Origin: Candidatus Scalindua sp.
GTDB lineage: Bacteria > Planctomycetota > Brocadiia > Brocadiales > Scalinduaceae
Direction: 5' to 3'
NCBI GenBank assembly: GCA_031316155.1
Contig: JALDRB010000010.1
Span: 124,001 to 188,000, forward strand
DNA: 64,000 nucleotides
Shown here: positions 4,305 to 61,502 of the stretch, piece after piece
Numbering within the stretch: position 1 is the stretch's first letter
How the letters are laid out: the number at the start of each line of letters is the position of its first letter
Notes under the pieces: generated by a model
The model's input: only the letters and a program-made list of their open reading frames with translations
Databases searched by the model: none
What the model was told of the DNA's origin: nothing
Made by a program: the position numbers and the translations under genes

Positions 4305-6947
4305 ATGAAAAATAAAACGAATCAAGAGCTTTCTTCTACCAAAATATCGTTTGACCAGGAAGTGCATCTCGCTGACTATCTGAACATCATATGGAAACGT
4401 AAATGGATTGCTATCACCTTTTTTATCGTTGTGGTTTGCGTAGTATCTGTCAAAACATACTATACAAAACCTGAATATTTAGCAACAGCACAGATCAGTA
4501 TTAAAGATATTTCTTCTCCTGTGAAAGGTATGGATCAGGTTTCTGAAATGGTGAACACTGGTTTTGAAACACAATGTGAATTGCTCAAAGGCAGTGACAT
4601 TGTGAGAGAGATTTGTGAAAATCTGCAGTTAGAGGAATATGTTACGGCTAACAGGGAAAAACCAAATGTTTTCTCTTCGATGTTGAACAGGATTCAAGGA
4701 TTTATCAGAAAATCTTTGAATCCTGAGAGTTCAAAGACGCCAAAGACTTTCCCTTCATCACTTAAAAAGACCGGGGAGAATGATGAAGAGGAGCTTCTTC
4801 ATCAACAATGGGTAGTGGATTGGTATCTGTCAAAACTCACGGTTAAATCTCTGCCAACTACGAACTTAGTTAACATTAGCTTTTATGACCACTCTCCAGA
4901 AATGGCCGCACGTATTGCCAATTTACATGCAAAAACGTTTGTCGAGAGAAATAATCAATTAAGAATTGAAACTTCCCGAAATACCTTTAACTGGTTAAGA
5001 AAGGAGCTTCGGGAGCAGAAATTGAAGGTTGAAAAATCTGATTTAGCGATTAACAAATTTGCTTTTGAAGAACTCAATTTTCATCAAGTCGATAGCGACA
5101 GTTTTTTTGCCTTACCAGAAATCAAGGAACATTTTGTCATTCAGGACCTTCGCAGACAACTGGTTAATCTGAAGACTAAGAAGATGGAAATGAATACGAA
5201 GTTTGGTCCCAAGCATCCGAAGATGATTGAGATTGACTCCAGCATAAATCAGGTGAAAAAAAGTATTGTTGATGAGGTGAGCCAGTTAAAAGAGACAATA
5301 AGGATAGAGTTGGAACGTGCAGCAGTTGCTGTGGATACTGAAAAGGATGATTTGAGAGAACAGAAACCGCAGATAGCGCAGGTTGATTTGCATGATCAGG
5401 AGAAGTTTACGAATTATGGGATGTTGCAGTTAGAGGCAGATAGTGATAAGGAGATTTATGATATTCTGCTTAAACAAGCCAAAGAGATAGACCTTACCGG
5501 TAACGTGGATGGCAACAACATCAGTATTGTAGATGCGGCAGTTATACCACGGATACCTATAAAACCGAATGTCATCTTTAATCTTCTCTTGTCGATTGTT
5601 ATGGGTTTGGTCTTTGGTGTAGGTTTTGCGTTCTTTTTTGAATATATGGATAAGACTCTGAGGACTCCAGATGATATTATGCAATACCTCGAACTTCCTG
5701 TCTTGGGTTTGTTGCCTTATAACAAGCACTTTAAAAAAACAGAGTCCCTTGTTTTACCAACAAACGGGACACACCTTAAATTAAATGAGCCTCCCAAGGA
5801 GAGGGGGAAAAATAGGACATCATATTATAATGTAACTAGTAATATTATTAGCGGGTTACCTTTTGTTCGGTCAGGAATTTCCGGACAAGTACTTTTATTT
5901 GAGAGTGCTACTGCCGGTGAAGGAAAGTCGACGGTCCTTGCAAACTCAGCCTTGAATCTGGCAAAGGGAGGGCTTCGCGTTGCAATGGTTGATGCAGACA
6001 TGCAACGACCATCCTTGCATATCAAGTTTGGTTTGGATAACGGCAATGTGAACGGGTTGTTAAATATTATGACAAGAATCCTCTCAACAAAAATAGATCA
6101 TGGGAATTTAGACAGTTGCAGCATTGATGATCTGTTTTTTCTTATTTCTTTAAAGAAACAGAGTGGAAAGCTCATTGTTAAAGATGATTCCCAGACAATG
6201 ACCGCTGTCTTTGAAAATGGCCGGCTCATCCATATTCAAAGTCAGGAAGTCCCTTTTGCAAATCGTTTGGGAACAATGCTCCTTCGGGGAGGTTTTATTG
6301 ATGAGAATCAACTGAAAGATGCCTTAGAGAGAAACGAGCGCACAGGACAGCCTATGGGATATATTCTTATTAATTCAGGTTATATTAATCAAAGCAAATT
6401 GCAGGGACCTTTAAAACTTCAAATGGAAGAACATCTTCATAAATTGTTTAGTTGGAAACGTGGTAATTTTGTTTTTGAATCAGGATATGTAGAGACCTAT
6501 GAGGACAGAAGAATCCATTTCCAAGAAGATTATTCACCAATAATAAGTCGTTTGGGCCGCATGGCAGGTAGTCGGTTGGTCGAAAACGAGGTTCTCTCAT
6601 GCTTAAAATCTATAGAGGGTCTTAACCTTTCATTATTAACCGGAGGTATGGATGATTTAAGAAATGAAGGTCCACAGTATTTCACGTTTCTAACAAAGGT
6701 TCTGGATATTTTAAAACAACGTTTTGATGTCGTGCTTGTTGATGCTCCACCGTTATTGGATACAATAGGTAGTGTAAGGTCATTACTCCAGCTGGTTGAC
6801 GGTGTAATCTTTGTGGTTAAATCGGGGCACGCTACCGTAAAAATGGTTAATCAAGCCGCTAGTTACTTGAAAGAGTCCGATGCTAATGTCGTTGGTGCCG
6901 TACTGAATCAATCTAAAAAGGACAGTGGTTACAATTACTATCGATAA
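4305..6947 (+). CDS. Wzc-like tyrosine autokinase with a DUF4388-type domain inside the kinase
   Basis: Inner-membrane polysaccharide co-polymerase fused to a bacterial tyrosine kinase. Order: Wzz domain with TM1 near residues 35-50, a periplasmic coiled-coil stretch, TM2 near 424-447 preceded by a proline-rich PRIPIKP, then the kinase. Walker A TAGEGKST lies near 536-543, Walker A' VDADMQRP near 562 and Walker B VLVDAPP near 813. In the family A' and B are roughly 80 residues apart; here they are about 250 apart. The extra segment (about 614-728) reads like DUF4388/PATAN: SGKLIVKD, FENGRLIH, then two LG-type repeats (RLGTMLLRGGFIDENQL; MGYILINSGYINQSKL), ending KLFSWKRGNFVFESG. The C-terminal tyrosine cluster is reduced to GYNYYR. 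Follows the Wza-like gene by 24 bases. Core function is secure; the role of the insert is unknown. Confidence 0.88.
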   Translation: MKNKTNQELSSTKISFDQEVHLADYLNIIWKRKWIAITFFIVVVCVVSVKTYYTKPEYLATAQISIKDISSPVKGMDQVSEMVNTGFETQCELLKGSDIVREICENLQLEEYVTANREKPNVFSSMLNRIQGFIRKSLNPESSKTPKTFPSSLKKTGENDEEELLHQQWVVDWYLSKLTVKSLPTTNLVNISFYDHSPEMAARIANLHAKTFVERNNQLRIETSRNTFNWLRKELREQKLKVEKSDLAINKFAFEELNFHQVDSDSFFALPEIKEHFVIQDLRRQLVNLKTKKMEMNTKFGPKHPKMIEIDSSINQVKKSIVDEVSQLKETIRIELERAAVAVDTEKDDLREQKPQIAQVDLHDQEKFTNYGMLQLEADSDKEIYDILLKQAKEIDLTGNVDGNNISIVDAAVIPRIPIKPNVIFNLLLSIVMGLVFGVGFAFFFEYMDKTLRTPDDIMQYLELPVLGLLPYNKHFKKTESLVLPTNGTHLKLNEPPKERGKNRTSYYNVTSNIISGLPFVRSGISGQVLLFESATAGEGKSTVLANSALNLAKGGLRVAMVDADMQRPSLHIKFGLDNGNVNGLLNIMTRILSTKIDHGNLDSCSIDDLFFLISLKKQSGKLIVKDDSQTMTAVFENGRLIHIQSQEVPFANRLGTMLLRGGFIDENQLKDALERNERTGQPMGYILINSGYINQSKLQGPLKLQMEEHLHKLFSWKRGNFVFESGYVETYEDRRIHFQEDYSPIISRLGRMAGSRLVENEVLSCLKSIEGLNLSLLTGGMDDLRNEGPQYFTFLTKVLDILKQRFDVVLVDAPPLLDTIGSVRSLLQLVDGVIFVVKSGHATVKMVNQAASYLKESDANVVGAVLNQSKKDSGYNYYR

Positions 6948-7522
6948 TGACTTTGTAAATTCTATAAACAGCTGAATGTATCGAATAATAGCGGAGGCAG
7001 GTACGAAGAGGTTTCCAAGGTCAACACCGGCAATTATCTGTGATCAGTTATTGGTTAGAAGACGTGTTCACGGTTACAAAAACGAAGTTTAAAAGATTTC
7101 ATGTTCCTGTGTTTCAATACTAATCCATCTGCACGCACTCACCTCCTTTTAATACAAAGAAAAATTGTAAAAGATTACCAGATATAATATCGGTGTGAAT
7201 TGACTCCTGGACATTCTCACAGGTTTGGGACATAGGGGTCTCTCACAATTTACTGTTACAAGAGCCATTCTTGCAAAGTTCTTTTGCTCATGTTGCTCAT
7301 GTTATTTAAAACACTGTCAGGCTGAGGAAGTAATACATAACAATCAAAATACTGTTTAAACACCACCGTTTTCATTCAGCTTAAAAGAGAAGCAGGGTAG
7401 GCATAAACGAAAATATATATATATGTACTTAAATACCACCATGTTATAAGGAAAGAAGATCCGATGTATGAAAATGCGACTATAAAGGCGGCGCCGAGAT
7501 TTGGTTTTCCTGATTAATGATT
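6948..7522. other. AT-rich gap after the exopolysaccharide pair
   Basis: No gene is supported. Bases 7390-7520, read on the minus strand, may hold the decayed 3' part of the DUF350 gene. Bases 7487-7505 (GGCGCCGAGATTTGGTTTT) resemble words of the MITE-like repeat, but too little matches to call a copy. Confidence 0.4.
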
Positions 7523-7957
7523 TCATTGGTCAGTATTTGCAATTCCAACAATAGCACCCGCGTAACTGATACCAACTGCTACATTGTCCTTTTCAATGTG
7601 CTCGTGAATACAATAAGGTGTAATGAAATTATTATTAAACGTATACAATATCGCTTTATCATTGATAATTGTAGATATATTCATCGATACGATAGCGATT
7701 GGAACGTAAATAAAAATATCAATTTGGTCAGCTAATATACCTGCCGATTCACCTGCCACTACTTTACCGATCGCAAATACTAAACCTATGTAATAACCAA
7801 CAAGCGAAAGTGCAAAGGCGCAGTTGTCCTTATTAACCAACTCTTCGCTAACACTTAAATCCCTGTAGATTAGATTGTATTCAAGTTTTCCCAACCAAAA
7901 AAGGAAGTAACAGCATACGAGAAAAATAACAGCCGAGATAAGATTATCAAAAATCAT
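7523..7957 (-). pseudogene. DUF350 membrane protein, 3' end decayed
   Basis: Small integral membrane protein of the DUF350 (YjfL/UPF0719) type. It has an N-terminal hydrophobic segment, a second segment FALSLVGYYIGLVFAIG and a third IFIYVPIAIVSMNISTII. The family motif continues as EKDNVAVGISYAGAIVGIA, but the frame stops a few codons later (ANTDQ, stop), in the middle of the expected next helix. Further down the minus strand other frames give AAFIVAFSYIGSSFLI, which looks like a continuation broken by frameshifts. The start ATG at 7957 follows GGAGGAGG. Function of the family is not established. It could instead be a real short version of the protein. Confidence 0.55.
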
Positions 7958-8338
7958 TTATTTCCCGAAACCTCCTCCTCTTCTTCGAAATGGACTCTGG
8001 CTTCTTTCAATTTTCTGTCCAACTCTGTTTTGCCATCTTTCTTGCAAAGAAATTCTTATGCGTTTGTTTTGTAATAGTACCATTTGTTCCGTATTGATTG
8101 GTTTAACCGTAATATGGCCTGTTATTTGTCCGGTAGTTGGTGTATGTATTAAATCATTTTTCTTGACCTAGGTGATTTTGTTATTATAATCAAAATTTTT
8201 ACCATTATGGTTTTTCTGTAAGGATTTCTTATCTCAATTACCAACAGGTTAAATAGTTTCGTAAAGAAATAAAATAGACAATTTTATGACATTTTCAAAA
8301 TAGTCAGTAATCATTAAACATCAAAAGGAGGTAAATTA
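7958..8338. other. Divergent upstream region of DUF350 and fhs
   Basis: Holds the fhs promoter (8163-8190) and an untranslated leader of about 140 bases. On the minus strand, 7960-8150 is an open frame ending in RRRGGGFGK whose stop (TAA) abuts the DUF350 start. It has no credible upstream start codon, so I do not call it a gene; it may be the 3' end of another decayed gene of that unit. Confidence 0.35.
8163..8190 (+). promoter_or_regulatory. Sigma70-type promoter of fhs
   Basis: TTGACC at 8163-8168 and TATAAT at 8185-8190 with a 16-base spacer. The predicted transcript would start near 8197, leaving a leader of about 140 bases before an AAAGGAGGT ribosome binding site just ahead of the ATG at 8339. 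Confidence 0.6.
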
Positions 8339-10105
8339 ATGGCTTTGGATCCTACTAAACATGCGGATTGGGAAATAGCAGAAGATGCTGAGACTCGCAT
8401 GAAAACAGTTTATCAATTAGCCGAAGAGTTAGGTTTGGAGAAGGAGGAGTTGCTCCCCCATGGACACTATGTGGCGAAGATTGATTTTAACAGGGCAATC
8501 AACCGTCTTGGGAACAAACCGGATGGGAAATATGTCGATGTGACTGCCATCACACCCACTCCTTTAGGTGAGGGGAAATCTACTACAACGATGGGTCTAG
8601 TACAAGGTTTGGGAAAAAGAGACAAGAACGTAGTAGGGGCTATCCGCCAGCCTTCTGGCGGTCCAACCATGAACATAAAAGGTTCGGCTGCTGGAGGAGG
8701 ACTTTCTCAATGTATTCCGCTGACACCATTTTCTCTTGGACTTACAGGAGACATCAATGCGATAATGAATGCGCACAACTTGGGGATGGTTGCCATTACC
8801 TCAAGGTTGCAGCATGAATTTAACTATAATGACGAACAACTTGCGAAAAGGAATCTGAAACGCCTTGATATCGATCCCAGCAGGATAGAATTTAAGTGGA
8901 TTATGGACTTCTGTGCACAGGCTCTTCGTGACATTATCATAGGTATTGGCGGGAAGATGGATGGTTTCATGATGAGCTCTGGATTTGCAATTGCCGTTTC
9001 ATCAGAAATTATGGCAATCTTGTCGGTTGCAAAGGATTTAAAAGATATGCGTGAGCGTATGGGGAGGATCGTTGTCGCTTATTCGAAATCAGGAAAACCG
9101 GTAACTACCGCTGATCTGGAAGTTGATGGTGCGATGACGGCGTGGATGGTGAATGCCATTAATCCGAACCTTATGCAGACTATTGAGGGGCAACCGGTTT
9201 TAGTACATGCCGGCCCTTTTGCAAATATTGCTATTGGTCAGTCATCGATTGTGGCTGACAGACTGGGTCTCAAGTTGGGTGATTACACCGTAACCGAATC
9301 CGGTTTCGGTGCAGATATAGGATTTGAGAAATTCTGGAACCTGAAGTGCCGTTTTTCAGGAAATAAACCCCATGCGGCGGTTCTTGTTGCCACTATCAGG
9401 GCGCTCAAATGTCATGGTGGTGCACCGATTCCTGTTCCTGGACACCCCTTGCATCCATCTTATAAGGAAGAAAATGTTGAATGGGCAGTTAAAGGGGCCG
9501 AAACAAATCTTCTCCATCTTATTAATGTGGTTAAGAAGGCTGGTATCAATCCTGTTGTTTGTATAAACCATTTCTACACTGATACAGACCGTGAAGTCAA
9601 AGCAGTTAGAAAGGTGGCTGAAGATGCCGGAGCCCGTGTTGCCCTTTCCAAGCATTGGGAAAAAGGTGGTGAAGGAGCCTTGGAGCTGGCTGATGCCGTA
9701 ATAGATGCCTGCAATGAAGAAAACAACTTTAAATTTCTCTATGAATTAGATACTCCCTTAAGAACACGAATAGAGTTAATTGCCGAGCAGGTATATGGTG
9801 CAGACGGAGTAGATTACACGCCCGATGCATTGGCAAAGGCCAAAGCTATGGAAGCTGACCCTGAGATTGCCAAAATGGGAACCTGCATGGTGAAAACCCA
9901 TCTTTCGCTTACAGACAATCCTCAGTTGTAAGGGGCTCCTAAAGATTGGAGATTGTGTATTAGAGATATATTGACTTTCAAGGGAGCTGGATTTGTTGTT
10001 CCAATTGCAGGTGCGATCAAACTCATGCCTGGTACGTGTTCAGATCCTGCTTTCCGACGAGTAGATGTAGATGTAAAGACAGGGAAGGTAAAGGGTCTTT
10101 TCTAA
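8339..10105 (+). CDS. fhs: Formate-tetrahydrofolate ligase, interrupted by an in-frame TAA
   Basis: ATP-dependent ligation of formate to tetrahydrofolate, a cytoplasmic one-carbon step. Seen: the P-loop-like [13 protein letters not shown] near residue 77, and conserved blocks [27 protein letters not shown] and [16 protein letters not shown]-like sequence. The uninterrupted frame ends at a TAA at 9929-9931 (residue 531) within the family motif LSLTDNPQL. The next codons in the same frame read [41 protein letters not shown] and TGKVKGLF, the expected C-terminus, ending at a second TAA at 10103-10105. A hairpin terminator follows at 10178. So the conserved gene is 588 codons with one nonsense codon where K or similar is expected. 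Error, mutation or readthrough cannot be told apart here. Start fixed by a strong AAAGGAGGT. Confidence 0.9.
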
Positions 10106-37121: not shown

Positions 37122-37550
37122 TTAGGCCTTGAACTCCGTTACCCACAGATCATGTAGGTTGCAAAAACTCGTTGCATACAGTGTAGTGCGAACCCAAGCA
37201 TAATCTGATCGACCGGAAGAGATCTCAAATACAGAGATAGCCTCAGTATCAGATGAGGAAAAGGTCTTTTCACCCAGGACTTCACCGTTTTGAGAAACCA
37301 CAGTATGCTTCACGATGTAGTGAGCATCAGACATACCATGATTCGTTTTTACCGTTACCTTATTACCTTCCACGGTAACATTTGGTACGTGTCCTTCAAC
37401 CTTTTGAGACCATTTACCCGGATTTTCCCTGGTATAGACAATTCCTTTGGGGAAAGAAACGGAGTCAGCCATTGCGGGGGTCACATGACCGGCAGCTACA
37501 CCGACTGCCACAGCTAATGAAGTTTTCATAAACACTCTTCTGTTTGACAT
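37122..37550 (-). CDS. Tat-exported superoxide-reductase-like protein
   Basis: 142 residues. The N-terminus has a twin-arginine signal (NRRVFMK, then a hydrophobic stretch and AMA cleavage), so the folded protein is exported. The mature part is a neelaredoxin/superoxide reductase domain: iron ligands are all present as His 54 (GHVP), His 71 and His 77 (NHGMSDAHY), Cys 130 and His 133 (CNLH). The N-terminal desulforedoxin domain of desulfoferrodoxin is absent, so it is the one-iron type. The family reduces superoxide to peroxide at an Fe(His)4Cys site. Some homologues bind iron without that role. A promoter lies at 37643-37672. Confidence 0.78.
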   Translation of the reverse strand: MSNRRVFMKTSLAVAVGVAAGHVTPAMADSVSFPKGIVYTRENPGKWSQKVEGHVPNVTVEGNKVTVKTNHGMSDAHYIVKHTVVSQNGEVLGEKTFSSSDTEAISVFEISSGRSDYAWVRTTLYATSFCNLHDLWVTEFKA

Positions 37551-54505: not shown

Positions 54506-55000
54506 ATGAATACATTAAACAGACAAAAGCGTGACCAAAACGAGGAAATAGACTTTTCCAAAGCAGAAGAGATTCTTGATGCATACGAAGGCGTTCATGG
54601 AGCACTGATCCCTGTCTTACAAAAAATACAGGCAGCATACGGATACCTGCAGGAACCAGTAATTAATCTTGTCGCTGAAAGAATGAACATGAATGCCAGT
54701 GAAATAGTTGGAGTTGCAACGTTCTACGCACAGTTCCATTTACAGCCAAGAGGCGTTCATATTATAAAAGTATGCTGTGGTACGGCATGCCACGTAAAGG
54801 GGGCTCCTAAGATTGTAGAAAAATTTAGTGCTGAACTGGATGTACCTGTTGGATCAACTACCAAGGATAAGTTATTTACTCTTGAGGAAGTGGCATGTCT
54901 TGGTGCGTGTTCTCTGGCTCCCGTTGCAATGATTGACGAAGACGTTCATGGAAAACTTGCCCCTGACAATGTAACACAGGTAATTCAAAAAACAAAATAG
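54506..55000 (+). CDS. nuoE: NADH-quinone oxidoreductase subunit E
   Basis: Thioredoxin-fold 2Fe-2S subunit, 164 residues. Seen: GALIPVLQKIQAAYGYL, VGVATFYAQF, the cluster cysteines CCGTACHVKGA and CLGACSLAPVAMI. The next gene (nuoF) carries a second such domain at its N-terminus. Confidence 0.95.
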   Translation: MNTLNRQKRDQNEEIDFSKAEEILDAYEGVHGALIPVLQKIQAAYGYLQEPVINLVAERMNMNASEIVGVATFYAQFHLQPRGVHIIKVCCGTACHVKGAPKIVEKFSAELDVPVGSTTKDKLFTLEEVACLGACSLAPVAMIDEDVHGKLAPDNVTQVIQKTK

Positions 55001-55034: not shown

Positions 55035-56882
55035 ATGTCAAAGAAAACAACTACAAGCGTACAAAAAAAGAGAACGGCAAAAAGAGCAAAGATCATGATT
55101 GGCATGGGTACCTGCGGCCTTGGTGCAGGAGCCAAAGGGGTCTTAAGGTGCATAGAAGAGGAGATTAAGAAACAAAAGCTTACCGCAGACATTATACCTA
55201 CAGGCTGCATCGGTTTGTGCACACAAGAGGTACTGGTTGACGTAATTCTTCCCGGTACAACAAGGGTAACCTACAAAAACGTAGAACCAGATATGGTAGC
55301 CCAAATTCTGGAGGAACATGTAAAAGATGGAAAAGTAGTGAAGAAATATGCATTGTCACAAATGTATCATGACGGTAAGGATGTTGCCCTCTATGAAGAT
55401 TTGCCATTTTTTGAAGAACTTGAGGTTAATAAGAACCAGTTGAAGTATGTTACCAGGAATTGTGGAATCATTGATCCCGATAGTATCGAAGAATATATTG
55501 CGAATGGTGGCTACCAGGCACTCGAAAAGGTTATAAAAAACATGAAACCTGAAGAAGTCATTAATGAAGTAAGCAAGGCGGGCCTTAGAGGGAGGGGAGG
55601 GGGCGGATTCTCGGCTGGCTGGAAATGGGGATCATGCGCTAAATACGATTCTGATGAAAAATACATTCTCTGTAACGCAGATGAAGGAGATCCCGGTGCC
55701 TTTATGGATAGGAGCCTTTTAGAAGGAGATCCTCACGCAGTTCTTGAAGGGATGATTATTGCAGGATATGCTATCGGGGCCAACAGCGGATACTTATATG
55801 TACGAGCTGAATACCCGTTAGCAGTTAAAAGATTAAAACATACTATTGAACAGGCAGAAAAGAATAACTTTCTCGGTAAAAATATTTTACATAGCGGTTA
55901 CAATCTTGACATTGCCGTAAAGGAGGGGGCCGGTGCCTTTGTTTGTGGTGAGTCAACCGCACTTCAATTTTCTATCGAGGGTAAACGGGGAATGCCCAGA
56001 ACAAGACCTCCTCAATCTGTAGAAGCCGGATTGTGGGATAAACCAACGTGTCTGAACAATGTGGAAACCTTTGCTAATGTTCCCCTCATCATTAATAGAG
56101 GTGCAGACTGGTACTCCAGTATTGGAACAGAAAACAGTAAAGGTACGAAAATATTTTCACTAACCGGAAAGATAAAACAGGCTGGACTGGTTGAGGTACC
56201 GATGGGTACTTCTATCCGTGACATCGTTTTCAGTATGGGAGGAGGAATCCAGAAGAGAAAAAGATTCAAAGCTGTACAGATTGGAGGCCCATCAGGTGGA
56301 TGCATACCCGAATCGCTTTTAGATTCTCCCGTTGACTTTGAATCATTAAAGGAAGCAGGGGCAATGATGGGTTCAGGCAGCTTTGTTGTTGTTGACGAAA
56401 CTACGTGCATGGTAGATATGGCAAGATTTTTTCTGGATTTTTGTGCAAAAGAGTCCTGCGGGAAATGTCCGCCTTGCAGAATAGGAACCACCCTCATGCT
56501 GGATATCCTTAATCGCATTACCAGTGGAGAGGGAGAAGAACGTGACATGGAGGTACTGGAACAGATGTGCGATGAAGTAAAGACAATGTCGCTTTGTGGC
56601 CTGGGACAGTCTGCACCCAATCCCGTGAAGTCAACTATTCGATATTTTCGAGATGAATATATGGCACACATCAGAGATAAAGAGTGTCCAACAGCAACAT
56701 GTGTTGCACTTCACCGGTATGAGATTGTTTCCGACAAATGTACAAAATGTTTGCTTTGTGTCAAGAACTGTCCGGTTAAAGCAATTTCGGGATCACGTGA
56801 AGAAGATGTGTTCATTCACAAAGACAAGTGTATTCAGTGCAACCTGTGTTATGAAAAGTGCAATTTTATGGCAATTAAATAA
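55035..56882 (+). CDS. nuoF: NuoF fused to an N-terminal 2Fe-2S domain and a C-terminal ferredoxin
   Basis: NADH-binding FMN subunit, 615 residues against roughly 430 in ordinary NuoF. Residues 1-105 are a thioredoxin-like 2Fe-2S domain (Cys 27, 39, 58, 62). The NuoF core has SKAGLRGRGGGGFSAGWKW, CNADEGDPGAF, GAYVCGESTAL-like AFVCGESTAL, and the N3 cluster motif SCGKCPPCRIGT. The last 60 residues hold two 4Fe-4S motifs (CTKCLLCVKNCP and CIQCNLCYEKC). This layout is known in HndC-type NAD(P)-linked hydrogenase and formate dehydrogenase subunits. Its stop shares a base with the nuoG start. Confidence 0.93.
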   Translation: MSKKTTTSVQKKRTAKRAKIMIGMGTCGLGAGAKGVLRCIEEEIKKQKLTADIIPTGCIGLCTQEVLVDVILPGTTRVTYKNVEPDMVAQILEEHVKDGKVVKKYALSQMYHDGKDVALYEDLPFFEELEVNKNQLKYVTRNCGIIDPDSIEEYIANGGYQALEKVIKNMKPEEVINEVSKAGLRGRGGGGFSAGWKWGSCAKYDSDEKYILCNADEGDPGAFMDRSLLEGDPHAVLEGMIIAGYAIGANSGYLYVRAEYPLAVKRLKHTIEQAEKNNFLGKNILHSGYNLDIAVKEGAGAFVCGESTALQFSIEGKRGMPRTRPPQSVEAGLWDKPTCLNNVETFANVPLIINRGADWYSSIGTENSKGTKIFSLTGKIKQAGLVEVPMGTSIRDIVFSMGGGIQKRKRFKAVQIGGPSGGCIPESLLDSPVDFESLKEAGAMMGSGSFVVVDETTCMVDMARFFLDFCAKESCGKCPPCRIGTTLMLDILNRITSGEGEERDMEVLEQMCDEVKTMSLCGLGQSAPNPVKSTIRYFRDEYMAHIRDKECPTATCVALHRYEIVSDKCTKCLLCVKNCPVKAISGSREEDVFIHKDKCIQCNLCYEKCNFMAIK

Positions 56883-59512
56883 TGATAAATCTTATTATTG
56901 ATAACAAAAATATAACTGTCCCCAGAGGTACTGATATTTTTTTGGCTGCTAAGAACAATGGTATCTACATTCCCGGTTTGTGTTACCATCCAAAGTTATC
57001 TCAATATGGAGGTTGCAGGCTTTGCATGGTTGAAGTGACAGAACGTGGTCGAACGAGACACAAATTTTCCTGCGCACAGCCGGTTTCTGAGGGTATGCAA
57101 GTCAAAACAAAAACTCCTGAAATCATAAAATATACGAAATCTGTCATGGAATACCTTCTCGCCCATCATCCGCTTGATTGCCCGACCTGCGATAAATCTG
57201 GAGAGTGCGGATTGCAGGACATAACCCATGATCTTAAATTGTCCAAAGGAAGATTTAAAACGGTGAGGATGAACAAACCCATGAGAAGAGATAATCCTCT
57301 TCTGGAGTTTAATGCTAATCGGTGTATCTTATGTGGAAGATGTGTAAAACTGTGTAAAGATGTTGAGGGGGTTGGGGCCATAGATTTTCAGAACAGAGGG
57401 ATTAATACTATTATCGGTACAGCTTTTGACAAACCTTTAGACTGCAGTTTTTGTGGCGGATGCCTCTCGGTATGTCCTACCGGCTCATGGCAGGATAGAA
57501 CATTTAAATTCAGGGCAAGACACTGGGAATTAAAAAAGACTACTTCTATTTGTCCGTATTGTGCTGTAGGATGTACAATTGAAACCAATACGAAAGACAA
57601 CACTGTTCTGAAGATTACATCAAATGATGCGCGGGGGATGAATGAAGGAAACCTCTGTATAAAAGGGAGGTTTGGTCACGATTTTGTTCACTCAGACAAA
57701 CGAATTAAAACTCCGCTCATTAAAAAGAACGGTGTTTTAAGCCCGGTATCATGGGATGACGCTATTGGCTATGTGGCAAAAAGATTCCGGGAAATCAAAA
57801 ATGTTTACGGTGGAAAAGCAATAGGAGGTATCGGTTCGGAAAAATGTACCAATGAAGATAATTATGTTTTCCAGAAATTTTGTAGAATGGTACTGGAAAC
57901 GAATAATATCGATAACCTCTCCAATATGAAGTCTCCTTTACTGAACACGCTCATTCACAAATCAATTGTGCACGGTTTCACATCAACAACATCACTGAAG
58001 AAGATAGAGAAAGCGGATACGCTATTTTTTGTCGGGGCGGATGTAACAGAAGCGCATCCTGTAATCGGGACTTTAGCACGAAAGGCCATACGATTAAACA
58101 AAGCTGACCTTATCATTGCAAACCTGAGAAATGTGCGTTTTGACAGCATCGCAAAAAATGATATCCGCTTAATCCATAAACTCGGTACGCAGGCTCCATT
58201 GATTAATGCCTTAATTAAGACAATCATTGACGAAAAACTTGTTGATCTTAAAAGAGTAGAAAAAGCAACTGATGGTTTGAGAGAATTAAAATCTCTTTTA
58301 AAAACATTTACGATAAAGAAAGCTTCTCAAATAACCGGTGTTTCCGAAGAAACCATACGAAAGGCATCGGCTTTAGTGGCAAAACCAGGTAACTGCTATA
58401 TTGTCTGTGGTAAAGATATTGAGGAAGACCCTTCCGGACCTGACACGATTAAGGCCCTCATGAATCTCTGTGCGCTAATTAATACGGCTTCTTCACTAAA
58501 AACAGACGCTGGAAAGATTTCTCTCGTATTTTCAAGGCTTAATAATAATTCTCAAGGTGCAAACGATATGGGTGTAGTTCCTGATTTTTTCCCCGGCTAT
58601 CTTGATATTGATGATCAATCAAACCGAAAAAGATTTGAAAAATCATGGGATACGAAACTATCAGATACTATCAGAAAGGGTACCGCTTTCAATTTAATAG
58701 ATCTTGCACTGAAAAAGAAGTTAAAAGCCATGTTTGTCATGGGAGAGAATCCAATCGTAAATTTCCCGAATGGAAAAACGGTAAAGGAAGCCTTTCGCCA
58801 GCTTGAATTTATCGTTGTCCAGGATACCTTCTTAACTGAGACGGCACAACTGGCTGATGTCGTGTTTCCCACTGCAACTTTTGCGGAAAAAGAGGGTACA
58901 TACACCAATATGGCAATGGAAGTACAACGTCTAAACATTGCCATACCTCCTGTTTGTAACGCCAGACAGGATTGGCAGATTCTCTGTGATATAGCAAAAA
59001 AGATGGGAGTAACCCTTTTCTATGAATCTTCCAAGGAGATCTTAGATGAAATAGAAAATACCGTACCAATATTTTCAGGCATCTATTATGAGCGTTTGAT
59101 AAGACAAAGTTTTAATTGGGTTACAGCGCATAAATTAAAATCAAGGAAGTACAAATTTGAGATTTTAAATCCAAAATCAGTTACGGTTAAAAAAAAGAGA
59201 GACTATCCATTTCTCTTGTTAACTGGGCCAAGTTTGCATCACTTGGGCAGTTTTTCCAGAAACTCAAATTCGCTCGTATCTGTTGCCTCAGAATGCTTCG
59301 TAGAGGTAAATAGAAAAGATGCTCAACAGATGAATATTCATGATGGTGATGAAGTGTTAATTGAATCAATCCAGGATTCTATGAAATTGAAGGCTAAGGT
59401 TACAAAAAAGTTACCGGAAAACATGATCTTTATTCCGGAAGATTATGAATGGGTTCACGTCAACGTTCTGCGTGACAACGTATATACAAAAGTAAAACTT
59501 TCAAAAGCTTAA
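56882..59512 (+). CDS. nuoG: NuoG, formate-dehydrogenase-like form
   Basis: 876 residues. Order: 2Fe-2S domain (CYHPKLSQYGGCRLCMVEV), His-Cys3 cluster (HHPLDCPTCDKSGECGLQ), two 4Fe-4S motifs (CILCGRCVKLC, CSFCGGCLSVCP), then the CPYCAVGC cluster with GNLCIKGRFGHDFV, a molybdopterin-oxidoreductase domain and a C-terminal molydop-binding domain (LLTGPSLHHLGSFSRNS; DGDEVLIES). This is the FdhF-type chain. At the place of the active Cys/Sec (family NNIDHCARLCHSP) the sequence is NNIDNLSNMKSPLLN, so the formate-oxidising residue is absent. It should act as an electron conduit only. Confidence 0.92.
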   Translation: MINLIIDNKNITVPRGTDIFLAAKNNGIYIPGLCYHPKLSQYGGCRLCMVEVTERGRTRHKFSCAQPVSEGMQVKTKTPEIIKYTKSVMEYLLAHHPLDCPTCDKSGECGLQDITHDLKLSKGRFKTVRMNKPMRRDNPLLEFNANRCILCGRCVKLCKDVEGVGAIDFQNRGINTIIGTAFDKPLDCSFCGGCLSVCPTGSWQDRTFKFRARHWELKKTTSICPYCAVGCTIETNTKDNTVLKITSNDARGMNEGNLCIKGRFGHDFVHSDKRIKTPLIKKNGVLSPVSWDDAIGYVAKRFREIKNVYGGKAIGGIGSEKCTNEDNYVFQKFCRMVLETNNIDNLSNMKSPLLNTLIHKSIVHGFTSTTSLKKIEKADTLFFVGADVTEAHPVIGTLARKAIRLNKADLIIANLRNVRFDSIAKNDIRLIHKLGTQAPLINALIKTIIDEKLVDLKRVEKATDGLRELKSLLKTFTIKKASQITGVSEETIRKASALVAKPGNCYIVCGKDIEEDPSGPDTIKALMNLCALINTASSLKTDAGKISLVFSRLNNNSQGANDMGVVPDFFPGYLDIDDQSNRKRFEKSWDTKLSDTIRKGTAFNLIDLALKKKLKAMFVMGENPIVNFPNGKTVKEAFRQLEFIVVQDTFLTETAQLADVVFPTATFAEKEGTYTNMAMEVQRLNIAIPPVCNARQDWQILCDIAKKMGVTLFYESSKEILDEIENTVPIFSGIYYERLIRQSFNWVTAHKLKSRKYKFEILNPKSVTVKKKRDYPFLLLTGPSLHHLGSFSRNSNSLVSVASECFVEVNRKDAQQMNIHDGDEVLIESIQDSMKLKAKVTKKLPENMIFIPEDYEWVHVNVLRDNVYTKVKLSKA

Positions 59513-59522
59513 AGGGTAAAAA

Positions 59523-59789
59523 ATGGGTAAAAAAGGACAGACGTATTTTTGCGAAGTTTGCAGACAGAAGGTTGAGGTCGTAAAGGGCGGTTTTGGTATA
59601 CTCGTATGCTGTGGCCAGGAGATGAAACGGGTTGAAGCAGGAAGCATGATGGAAACCTGGACGTCGGTACACCATAAGCCAGCTGAAGGAACCTCTTATA
59701 TCTGTAAGGTGTGCGGACAGAAGATCAATGTTATTAACGAAACTACAGGAATATTAGAATGCTGTGGCCAGAGAATGAAAAGGGAATAA
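59523..59789 (+). CDS. Tandem desulforedoxin-domain protein
   Basis: 88 residues made of two copies of the desulforedoxin motif. Domain 1: YFCEVCRQKVEVVKGGFGIL then CCGQEM, Cys 10, 13, 29, 30. Domain 2: YICKVCGQKINVINETTGIL then CCGQRM, Cys 61, 64, 80, 81. Each has the C-x2-C-x15-CC spacing that binds one iron through four cysteines in desulforedoxin and in the N-terminal domain of desulfoferrodoxin. No signal peptide. It sits inside the nuo operon, ten bases after nuoG and 19 before nuoH, in the same strand, so it is co-expressed with complex I. An electron-transfer or assembly role is inference. I know of no standard complex I subunit like it. Confidence 0.85.
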   Translation: MGKKGQTYFCEVCRQKVEVVKGGFGILVCCGQEMKRVEAGSMMETWTSVHHKPAEGTSYICKVCGQKINVINETTGILECCGQRMKRE

Positions 59790-59808
59790 CCCTGAGGAAT
59801 TAATATAT

Positions 59809-60801
59809 ATGTTAGATGTTATTTTGTTTACCTTCATTGCAATCATCAAGATAAGTATAGTTTTCGGGTTACTCCTCCTGACTATTGCCTACCTTATTTG
59901 GATAGAACGAAAAGTTATGGCACATATGCAGGTACGACTTGGTCCAATGAGAGTGGGGTGGCACGGGCTTCTTCAACCCCTTGCAGATGGAATAAAATTG
60001 CTGTTCAAGGAAGATATTGTCCCTTACAAGGCCAGCAAAGTGCTCTTTATCATGGCGCCTGTCATTGCTATTGTCCCCGCTCTTATGTCCTTTGCTGTCA
60101 TTCCTTTTGGTAACAAAATAACCATTTCAGGATATAGCATTGATATGGTTATTACGGACATAAATATCGGTATTCTCTTTATCCTCGCCGTCACTTCGGT
60201 AGGAGTTTATGGTATTATCCTGGCCGGTTGGTCATCCAGCAATAAATATTCCTTGCTGGGAGGGTTGAGATCTTCAGCACAGATGATCAGTTATGAACTC
60301 TCAATAGGTTTATCACTGATAGGCGTTCTCATGATAACTCAATCACTGAGTCTTGTTGACATTGTTAATGCACAATCCAAGTGGTGGTTTGTGTTATTCC
60401 AACCGATAGGGTTTATGGTGTATGCGATAAGTGCTGTTGCAGAGGTGAACAGATGTCCATTTGATTTACCGGAAGCCGAATCTGAGCTGGTTGCAGGATA
60501 CCACACTGAATATAGCAGTATGAAATTCTCACTGTTTTTTATGGCTGAATATGCCAATATTCTTACCGTTTCGGCAATTGCCGTTACCTTTTTCTTTGGA
60601 GGATGGAGGGGGCCGTTCCTTCCACCTGTGATCTGGTTCTTAATTAAGATGTTTTTATGCATATTCTTTTTCGTATGGATACGATCAACGTATCCCAGAT
60701 TCCGGTACGATCAGCTAATGAATTTCGGGTGGAAATTTTTGCTACCCGTTGCTTTAGCAAACATCATTGTTACGGGACTTGTTATAGTACTGATTGGATA
60801 G
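59809..60801 (+). CDS. nuoH: NADH-quinone oxidoreductase subunit H
   Basis: Membrane subunit beside the quinone chamber, 330 residues, about eight helices. Seen: WIERKVMAHMQVRLGPMRVG, LLQPLADGIKLLFKEDI, AEVNRCPFDLPEAESELVAGYHTEYS and WIRSTYPRFRYDQLM. All family landmarks present. Confidence 0.97.
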   Translation: MLDVILFTFIAIIKISIVFGLLLLTIAYLIWIERKVMAHMQVRLGPMRVGWHGLLQPLADGIKLLFKEDIVPYKASKVLFIMAPVIAIVPALMSFAVIPFGNKITISGYSIDMVITDINIGILFILAVTSVGVYGIILAGWSSSNKYSLLGGLRSSAQMISYELSIGLSLIGVLMITQSLSLVDIVNAQSKWWFVLFQPIGFMVYAISAVAEVNRCPFDLPEAESELVAGYHTEYSSMKFSLFFMAEYANILTVSAIAVTFFFGGWRGPFLPPVIWFLIKMFLCIFFFVWIRSTYPRFRYDQLMNFGWKFLLPVALANIIVTGLVIVLIG

Positions 60802-60967
60802 AATTGTTCGAAGAAAATTTTATCTTTTAACTTGCTCGGTTCATATATAGCTTACTATGGAAAGTTAGTCAGTCAAACGAGCATCCTGACGGACCAGGAT
60901 AGCCTAACTTGATTGCAGAGGAATTTTTATTTTAAGACTCAATATACCAATAGTTTACCTTTTTTGT

Positions 60968-61065
60968 GCGTTAGCACATATCAAAATGGCGTAAAGCAAC
61001 GACACGGACGTCGTTGCCTGCCCGGATGACTCCGTGTGGTTCTGGCGGGCAGGATGCACTAATTC
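60968..61065. repeat. GC-rich dispersed repeat, copy C
   Basis: In the 281-base gap between nuoH and nuoI. Contains GCGTTAGCACATATCAAAAT, GCAACGACACGGACGTCGTTGC (near-palindrome), CCTGCCCGGATGACT and CTGGCGGGCAGG. It resembles the repeat at 48810 and shares the CGGGC/GGCGGG words of the one at 36950. Confidence 0.45.
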
Positions 61066-61082
61066 AAGAAAGAAAGTTTAAG

Positions 61083-61502
61083 ATGATAAAACCATTACTT
61101 CAAGGTTTAGCACTTACATTAAAATATTTTATAAGACCTTCTCAGGTAGTAACCATGCAGTATCCTGAAGAGAGATGGACGCCTTATCCACGTTTTAGAG
61201 GTTTACACGAATTACAGAGAGATCAAAATGGTAAAGAGAAATGCGTGGCATGCGGACTTTGCTCCACCGTTTGCCCTTCTGAGTGTATTCATATTGTAAG
61301 TGCCGAAAATGCTCAGGGAGAACGATACTCAGAGGTTTACGAAATAGACATGCTTCGCTGCATTTTTTGTGGATACTGCCAGGAAGTATGCCCTGAAGAC
61401 GCCATCTTTTTGAAGCAGGAGTATGAACTGGCATCTTCAGAGGGAACAGGATTTATTTATGGTAAAGAGAGACTGCTCGCGCCGTTAAAGAAACATAAAT
61501 AA
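61083..61502 (+). CDS. nuoI: NADH-quinone oxidoreductase subunit I
   Basis: Two 4Fe-4S clusters (N6a, N6b) in the hydrophilic arm. 139 residues from the ATG at 61083. Seen: ERWTPYPRFRGLHEL, CVACGLCSTVCPSECIHI, CIFCGYCQEVCPEDAI. The open frame reaches back to 61014, but those codons lie in the GC-rich repeat and are not part of the protein. Confidence 0.95.
   Translation: MIKPLLQGLALTLKYFIRPSQVVTMQYPEERWTPYPRFRGLHELQRDQNGKEKCVACGLCSTVCPSECIHIVSAENAQGERYSEVYEIDMLRCIFCGYCQEVCPEDAIFLKQEYELASSEGTGFIYGKERLLAPLKKHK

Follow-up and report, generated by a model that had tools for sequence, protein, structure and literature searches.

Dx2, the name used here for the tandem desulforedoxin protein encoded at 59523-59789 of the window (the whole 64,000-nucleotide stretch of DNA that was analysed), is probably a carrier linking NADH to oxygen defence, rather than a structural component of complex I. 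The specific reading favoured by the sequence comparisons, that Dx2 is an NADH-fed electron carrier for non-haem iron oxygen-defence enzymes, was assigned a probability of about 0.5. Dx2 would be a soluble, cytoplasmic protein of two fused desulforedoxin (Dx) domains, each with a single iron bound by four cysteines. Electrons would reach it from the NADH pool via an NADH:rubredoxin-reductase-like (NROR-like) flavoprotein, with the complex I NADH arm (NuoEFG) as a possible further donor, and would pass from it to non-haem iron enzymes acting in peroxide or superoxide removal. The acceptors would be rubrerythrin-type proteins without a rubredoxin domain of their own, and/or a cytoplasmic superoxide reductase (SOR), and the position between nuoG and nuoH would have the carrier made together with the NADH dehydrogenase. 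In this scheme we infer the iron content of Dx2, its redox role, its donors and acceptors, and its co-expression.

Anammox bacteria are strict anaerobes, and how well they tolerate oxygen bears on marine nitrogen loss and on wastewater treatment. The genome containing the window encodes hydrazine synthase alpha (PF18582). For oxygen defence in anammox bacteria, a chain from NADH via Nror and rubredoxin to SOR, rubrerythrin or Fdp has been proposed, both published schemes naming rubredoxin as the carrier (PMC10156729, PMC13253579), and Scalindua nlr/sor, which are not equated here with the Tat-exported SOR-like protein of the window (Tat-SOR), are reported to be strongly induced by oxygen (PMC10156729, PMC13253579). 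No paper treating anammox and desulforedoxin together, and no description of Dx2, was found in the open-access literature. If Dx2 is indeed a two-iron carrier conserved within the nuo operon, it would be a new component of this defence chain and would tie NADH oxidation to defence in a way open to testing.

The genes and domains considered in the window are as follows.

37122-37550, minus strand: Tat-SOR-like protein, a one-iron superoxide-reductase-like protein (PF01880, 36.8 bits)
54506-55000, plus strand: nuoE, 164 aa, named by its sequence and by its place between nuoD and nuoF
55035-56882, plus strand: nuoF, 615 aa, with additional N-terminal 2Fe-2S-ferredoxin-like and C-terminal 4Fe-4S ferredoxin regions
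56882-59512, plus strand: nuoG, 876 aa, for which TIGR01591 (formate dehydrogenase alpha) outscores TIGR01973 (NuoG)
59523-59789, plus strand: Dx2, tandem desulforedoxin, 88 aa, with no signal peptide (judged by eye) and no membrane-length hydrophobic segment
59529-59630, plus strand: Dx2 desulforedoxin domain 1, Cys 10, 13, 29 and 30 (PF06397, 43.8 bits)
59631-59684, plus strand: Dx2 linker, with M42, M43, W46, T47 and P53 invariant in the alignment of 38 distinct sequences
59685-59780, plus strand: Dx2 desulforedoxin domain 2, Cys 61, 64, 80 and 81 (PF06397, 34.7 bits)
59809-60801, plus strand: nuoH, 330 aa (PF00146, E 2e-132)

The identities of NuoG, NuoH and NuoF were backed by Pfam, and nuoE homologues occupy the same place in relatives. 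These genomes also carry NuoF-like and NuoG-like paralogues at other loci, and some of the paralogues contain an in-frame TGA that may encode selenocysteine.

The first-pass annotation had described two complete desulforedoxin motifs in an 88-residue protein between nuoG and nuoH, and the ORF, Pfam and NCBIfam results agree with that description. PF06397 (Desulfoferrod_N) matched Dx2 twice (E 2e-19; 69.4 bits against a cut-off of 23), as did NCBIfam TIGR00319 desulf_FeS4 (56.1 bits against a cut-off of 36.05), the cysteine pattern C-x2-C-x15-CC occurs two times, and the gene is separated from the nuoG stop by 10 bases and from the nuoH start by 19 bases. With the motif present and a score above the curated cut-off, Dx2 qualifies as a desulforedoxin domain protein. 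The two domains are identical at 17 of 29 aligned residues, all eight cysteines are invariant across the 38 aligned sequences, and dN/dS against the nearest relative (G001) was 0.11/2.28, or approximately 0.05, with dS saturated. Dx2 is a real gene under purifying selection, and a chance motif as the source of the pattern was ruled out by conservation and selection together. The closest sequence was that of Candidatus Scalindua sp. SCAELEC01, at 80% identity; together with the hydrazine synthase alpha gene, this places the organism among the anammox bacteria of the Scalindua group. A search of PHROGs gave a weak match to residues 6-22 alone, and a promoter and terminator scan of 58500-61100 gave matches no more numerous than in shuffles.

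Distribution was determined by protein search in a sample of 59 genomes of the order, with Dx2 counted at E below 1e-30 and tallies made by hand. Dx2 was present in 40 of the 59 genomes, with homologues 61-80% identical, and 34 of the 40 have it between nuoG and nuoH, 8 of them from family f1 and 26 from family f5, to which Brocadia, Jettenia, Kuenenia and Loosdrechtia belong; a contig break falls inside the nuoG-Dx2-nuoH stretch in G043 and G045. This gene order spans two anammox families, across which NuoG identity falls to 55-60%, with gaps mostly below about 160 bases and, in some genomes, additional ORFs separating Dx2 from nuoG or from nuoH. PIN-domain-like ORFs, recognised by eye, are inserted between Dx2 and nuoH at two loci (L054, 6072-6449; L060, 6523-6897). 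A partial second Dx2, comprising the linker and domain 2, was seen downstream of Dx2 in the Brocadiaceae bin G043 (L104, L064), apparently before nuoH, at the contig break.

Outside the sample, a peptide-pattern search of contigs from 84,980 species, which reaches close relatives only, gave 31 loci, 30 of them with anammox, Brocadiaceae or Planctomycetota titles, and the remaining one an archaeal single Dx. Among 392 Planctomycetota genomes, matches were confined to members of the order and a single weak match interrupted by a stop codon, and in 292 genomes of an archaeal phylum the matches covered about the first Dx2 domain only. A wide tandem-Dx family beyond anammox was considered, and none was found by the close-relative patterns or in the two phyla searched.

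The six remaining copies lie outside nuo, all in f1 (G005, G006, G012, G014, G015 and G016). In these six genomes Dx2 immediately follows, by about 6-132 bases, an NROR-like gene whose product has Pyr_redox_2 and Rubredoxin_C domains. At the loci read, the relocated gene is followed by genes for a 77-aa rubredoxin-like plus Dx protein and two rubrerythrin-type proteins (PF02915), in neither of which a rubredoxin domain was detected by Pfam, and is preceded by a Tat-SOR-like homologue, the G016 contig stopping short of that position. Rubrerythrins without a rubredoxin domain would require a separate Fe(Cys)4 partner, so the rubrerythrin-type proteins of this cluster, having no such domain, would need one. 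In five of the six genomes nuoG adjoins nuoH without Dx2, and in G012 (79% complete) complex I was not found. A tandem pair of nuoF copies was seen within the nuo operon of G005 (L107, 11291-15013).

In the Dx2 tree, the relocated copies formed one clade (99/99) inside the f1 copies, with deeper branches weakly resolved and Dx2 itself short, and in the NuoH tree four of the relocated-Dx2 genomes formed one clade (100/100) beside other Scalindua. Since the trees place this clade within the copies of the Scalindua family, the relocated Dx2 is the same gene, and since both families hold Dx2 in nuo, the simplest history would be a single move out of nuo, the rooting leaving other event orders possible. 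The relocation suggests a role for Dx2 in a chain running from NROR via a carrier to rubrerythrin or SOR, and Dx2 would be useful in nuo as well, given its stable place there; taken by itself, the gene neighbourhood would fit electron transfer, sensing or an accessory iron-binding role alike. Linkage to NROR, rubrerythrin and SOR genes was found in 6 of the 40 genomes and not in the window's own, where a cluster of NROR, rubredoxin/Dx and rubrerythrin-type genes without Dx2 lies on a separate contig (L113, 9103-11259, G000:C4). Because G004 has an NROR-rubrerythrin cluster with Dx2 undetected, and family f4 has an NROR homologue (46-52%) without Dx2, the NROR pathway does not require Dx2, which counts against a simple form of the favoured reading. 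Three roles had been suggested at first pass for the protein at the complex: electron transfer and oxygen protection, taken together, draw support from the relocated copies beside NROR, rubrerythrin and SOR genes, and iron loading or assembly loses support.

The Tat-exported SOR-like protein that had been reported in the window was recovered on the minus strand with its PF01880 match, and its N-terminus, MSNRRVFMKTSLAVAVG, is a twin-arginine-like signal. A direct link between it and Dx2 had been called doubtful, and that doubt holds in one respect, since Tat-SOR has an export signal, which should keep it from direct reduction by a cytoplasmic Dx2, but is weakened in another, the two genes being near neighbours in the sister clade. 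SOR genes besides Tat-SOR are present in most of these genomes.

Family f4 (G019, G021) has no Dx2, though its NuoF and NuoG are of the same type. In G004 (f1), the operon runs straight from nuoD to nuoH and lacks nuoE, nuoF, nuoG and Dx2, NuoF paralogues elsewhere in the genome reaching 47-54% only; in G018 (f3), nuoD adjoins nuoH, with no nuoEFG in the operon and no Dx2. The direct junctions, which may belong to a complex I without its NADH arm, are located as follows.

L112 (G004:C154), 7237-9452: nuoD-nuoH junction, nuoEFG absent
L115 (G018:C7), 5451-7135: nuoD-nuoH junction, nuoEFG absent

Family f2 has no full-length Dx2 and a different complex I, whose NuoH shows about 50% identity; in G003, both nuoH and Dx2 are absent. 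Several other genomes without Dx2 are incomplete or broken at the site, and these absences were left uncounted. The idea that Dx2 owes its presence to an HndC-like NuoF was ruled out, f4 having such a NuoF without Dx2. A gene of approximately 320 aa, PAS-like by eye, was seen between nuoF and nuoG in f4 (L105, 12146-13108; L106, 12903-13856). The natural relocation, and the lineages without both nuoEFG and Dx2, are comparisons that help to separate the hypotheses.

It had been proposed that Dx2 is tied to nuo, and that relatives with the operon and without the gene would make the link chance. The tie is upheld by the 34 copies between nuoG and nuoH in two families, and is limited by the Scalindua clade and f4, which have nuoEFG-nuoH without Dx2; such relatives were found in part of the sample, hence Dx2 is not an essential part of complex I. 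A place for Dx2 in the NADH arm as a lineage-specific accessory subunit or assembly factor, lying near NuoG and NuoF and stabilising the arm or passing electrons into it, is rather doubtful. The nuoG-nuoH position is fixed in 34 genomes, no Dx2 occurs where nuoEFG is absent (G004, G018), and descent is vertical within the two families, but the joint loss in G004 could be the deletion of one block, and unrelated ORFs are tolerated around Dx2 within nuo in several genomes. In five genomes of the Scalindua clade nuoG and nuoH stay side by side and Dx2 lies at another locus, and in f4 NuoF and NuoG of this type occur with no Dx2, so that Dx2 is a conserved nuo neighbour that is not present wherever nuoEFG occurs, as a subunit should be.

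Unlikely, too, is a co-transcribed passenger, that is, an oxidative-stress carrier to which nuo gives constant expression only, with no functional tie to complex I. Dx2 has left the operon yet been retained, in an oxygen-defence cluster, and the nuo operon of f4 manages without it, both as a passenger would allow; the nuo position has nevertheless survived large divergence in two families, and Dx2 is missing where nuoEFG is missing, although G004 has the NROR cluster. A side exit from complex I, in which the NADH arm, with its ferredoxin-extended NuoF and formate-dehydrogenase-like NuoG, would reduce Dx2 directly and so send NADH electrons to oxygen-defence enzymes, was considered distinctly unlikely. 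A role in redox or metal sensing, or in iron storage or delivery, in place of electron transfer, is very improbable for Dx2: small four-cysteine proteins are able to bind zinc or serve as sensors, but the Dx2 domains match desulforedoxin specifically and are accompanied by no DNA-binding or enzyme domain, and the neighbours of relocated Dx2 are a reductase and its likely clients.

Dx2 can be compared with three known systems. Desulfovibrio gigas desulforedoxin (1dxg, 1cfw) belongs to the same Fe(Cys)4 domain family and has the same C-x2-C-x15-CC spacing. It consists of one 36-residue domain, whereas Dx2 has two domains fused in one chain. The D. gigas protein forms a homodimer, and Dx2 is possibly a covalent pseudo-dimer. 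The best solved match to Dx2 is the N-terminal domain of desulfoferrodoxin (Dx-SOR, 2Fe-SOR; 1vzg, E 3e-7), which has a catalytic SOR domain where Dx2 has its second Dx domain. PF01880 is absent from Dx2, and TIGR00320 reached 48 bits against a cut-off of 146.9; a desulfoferrodoxin fragment was ruled out, Dx2 having no SOR domain and a conserved second Dx domain. The rubredoxin, NROR and rubrerythrin-SOR chain of anaerobes resembles the Dx2 neighbourhood in the six Scalindua genomes, and differs from it in that the carrier would be a tandem desulforedoxin, with its gene inside the nuo operon in 34 of the 40 genomes.
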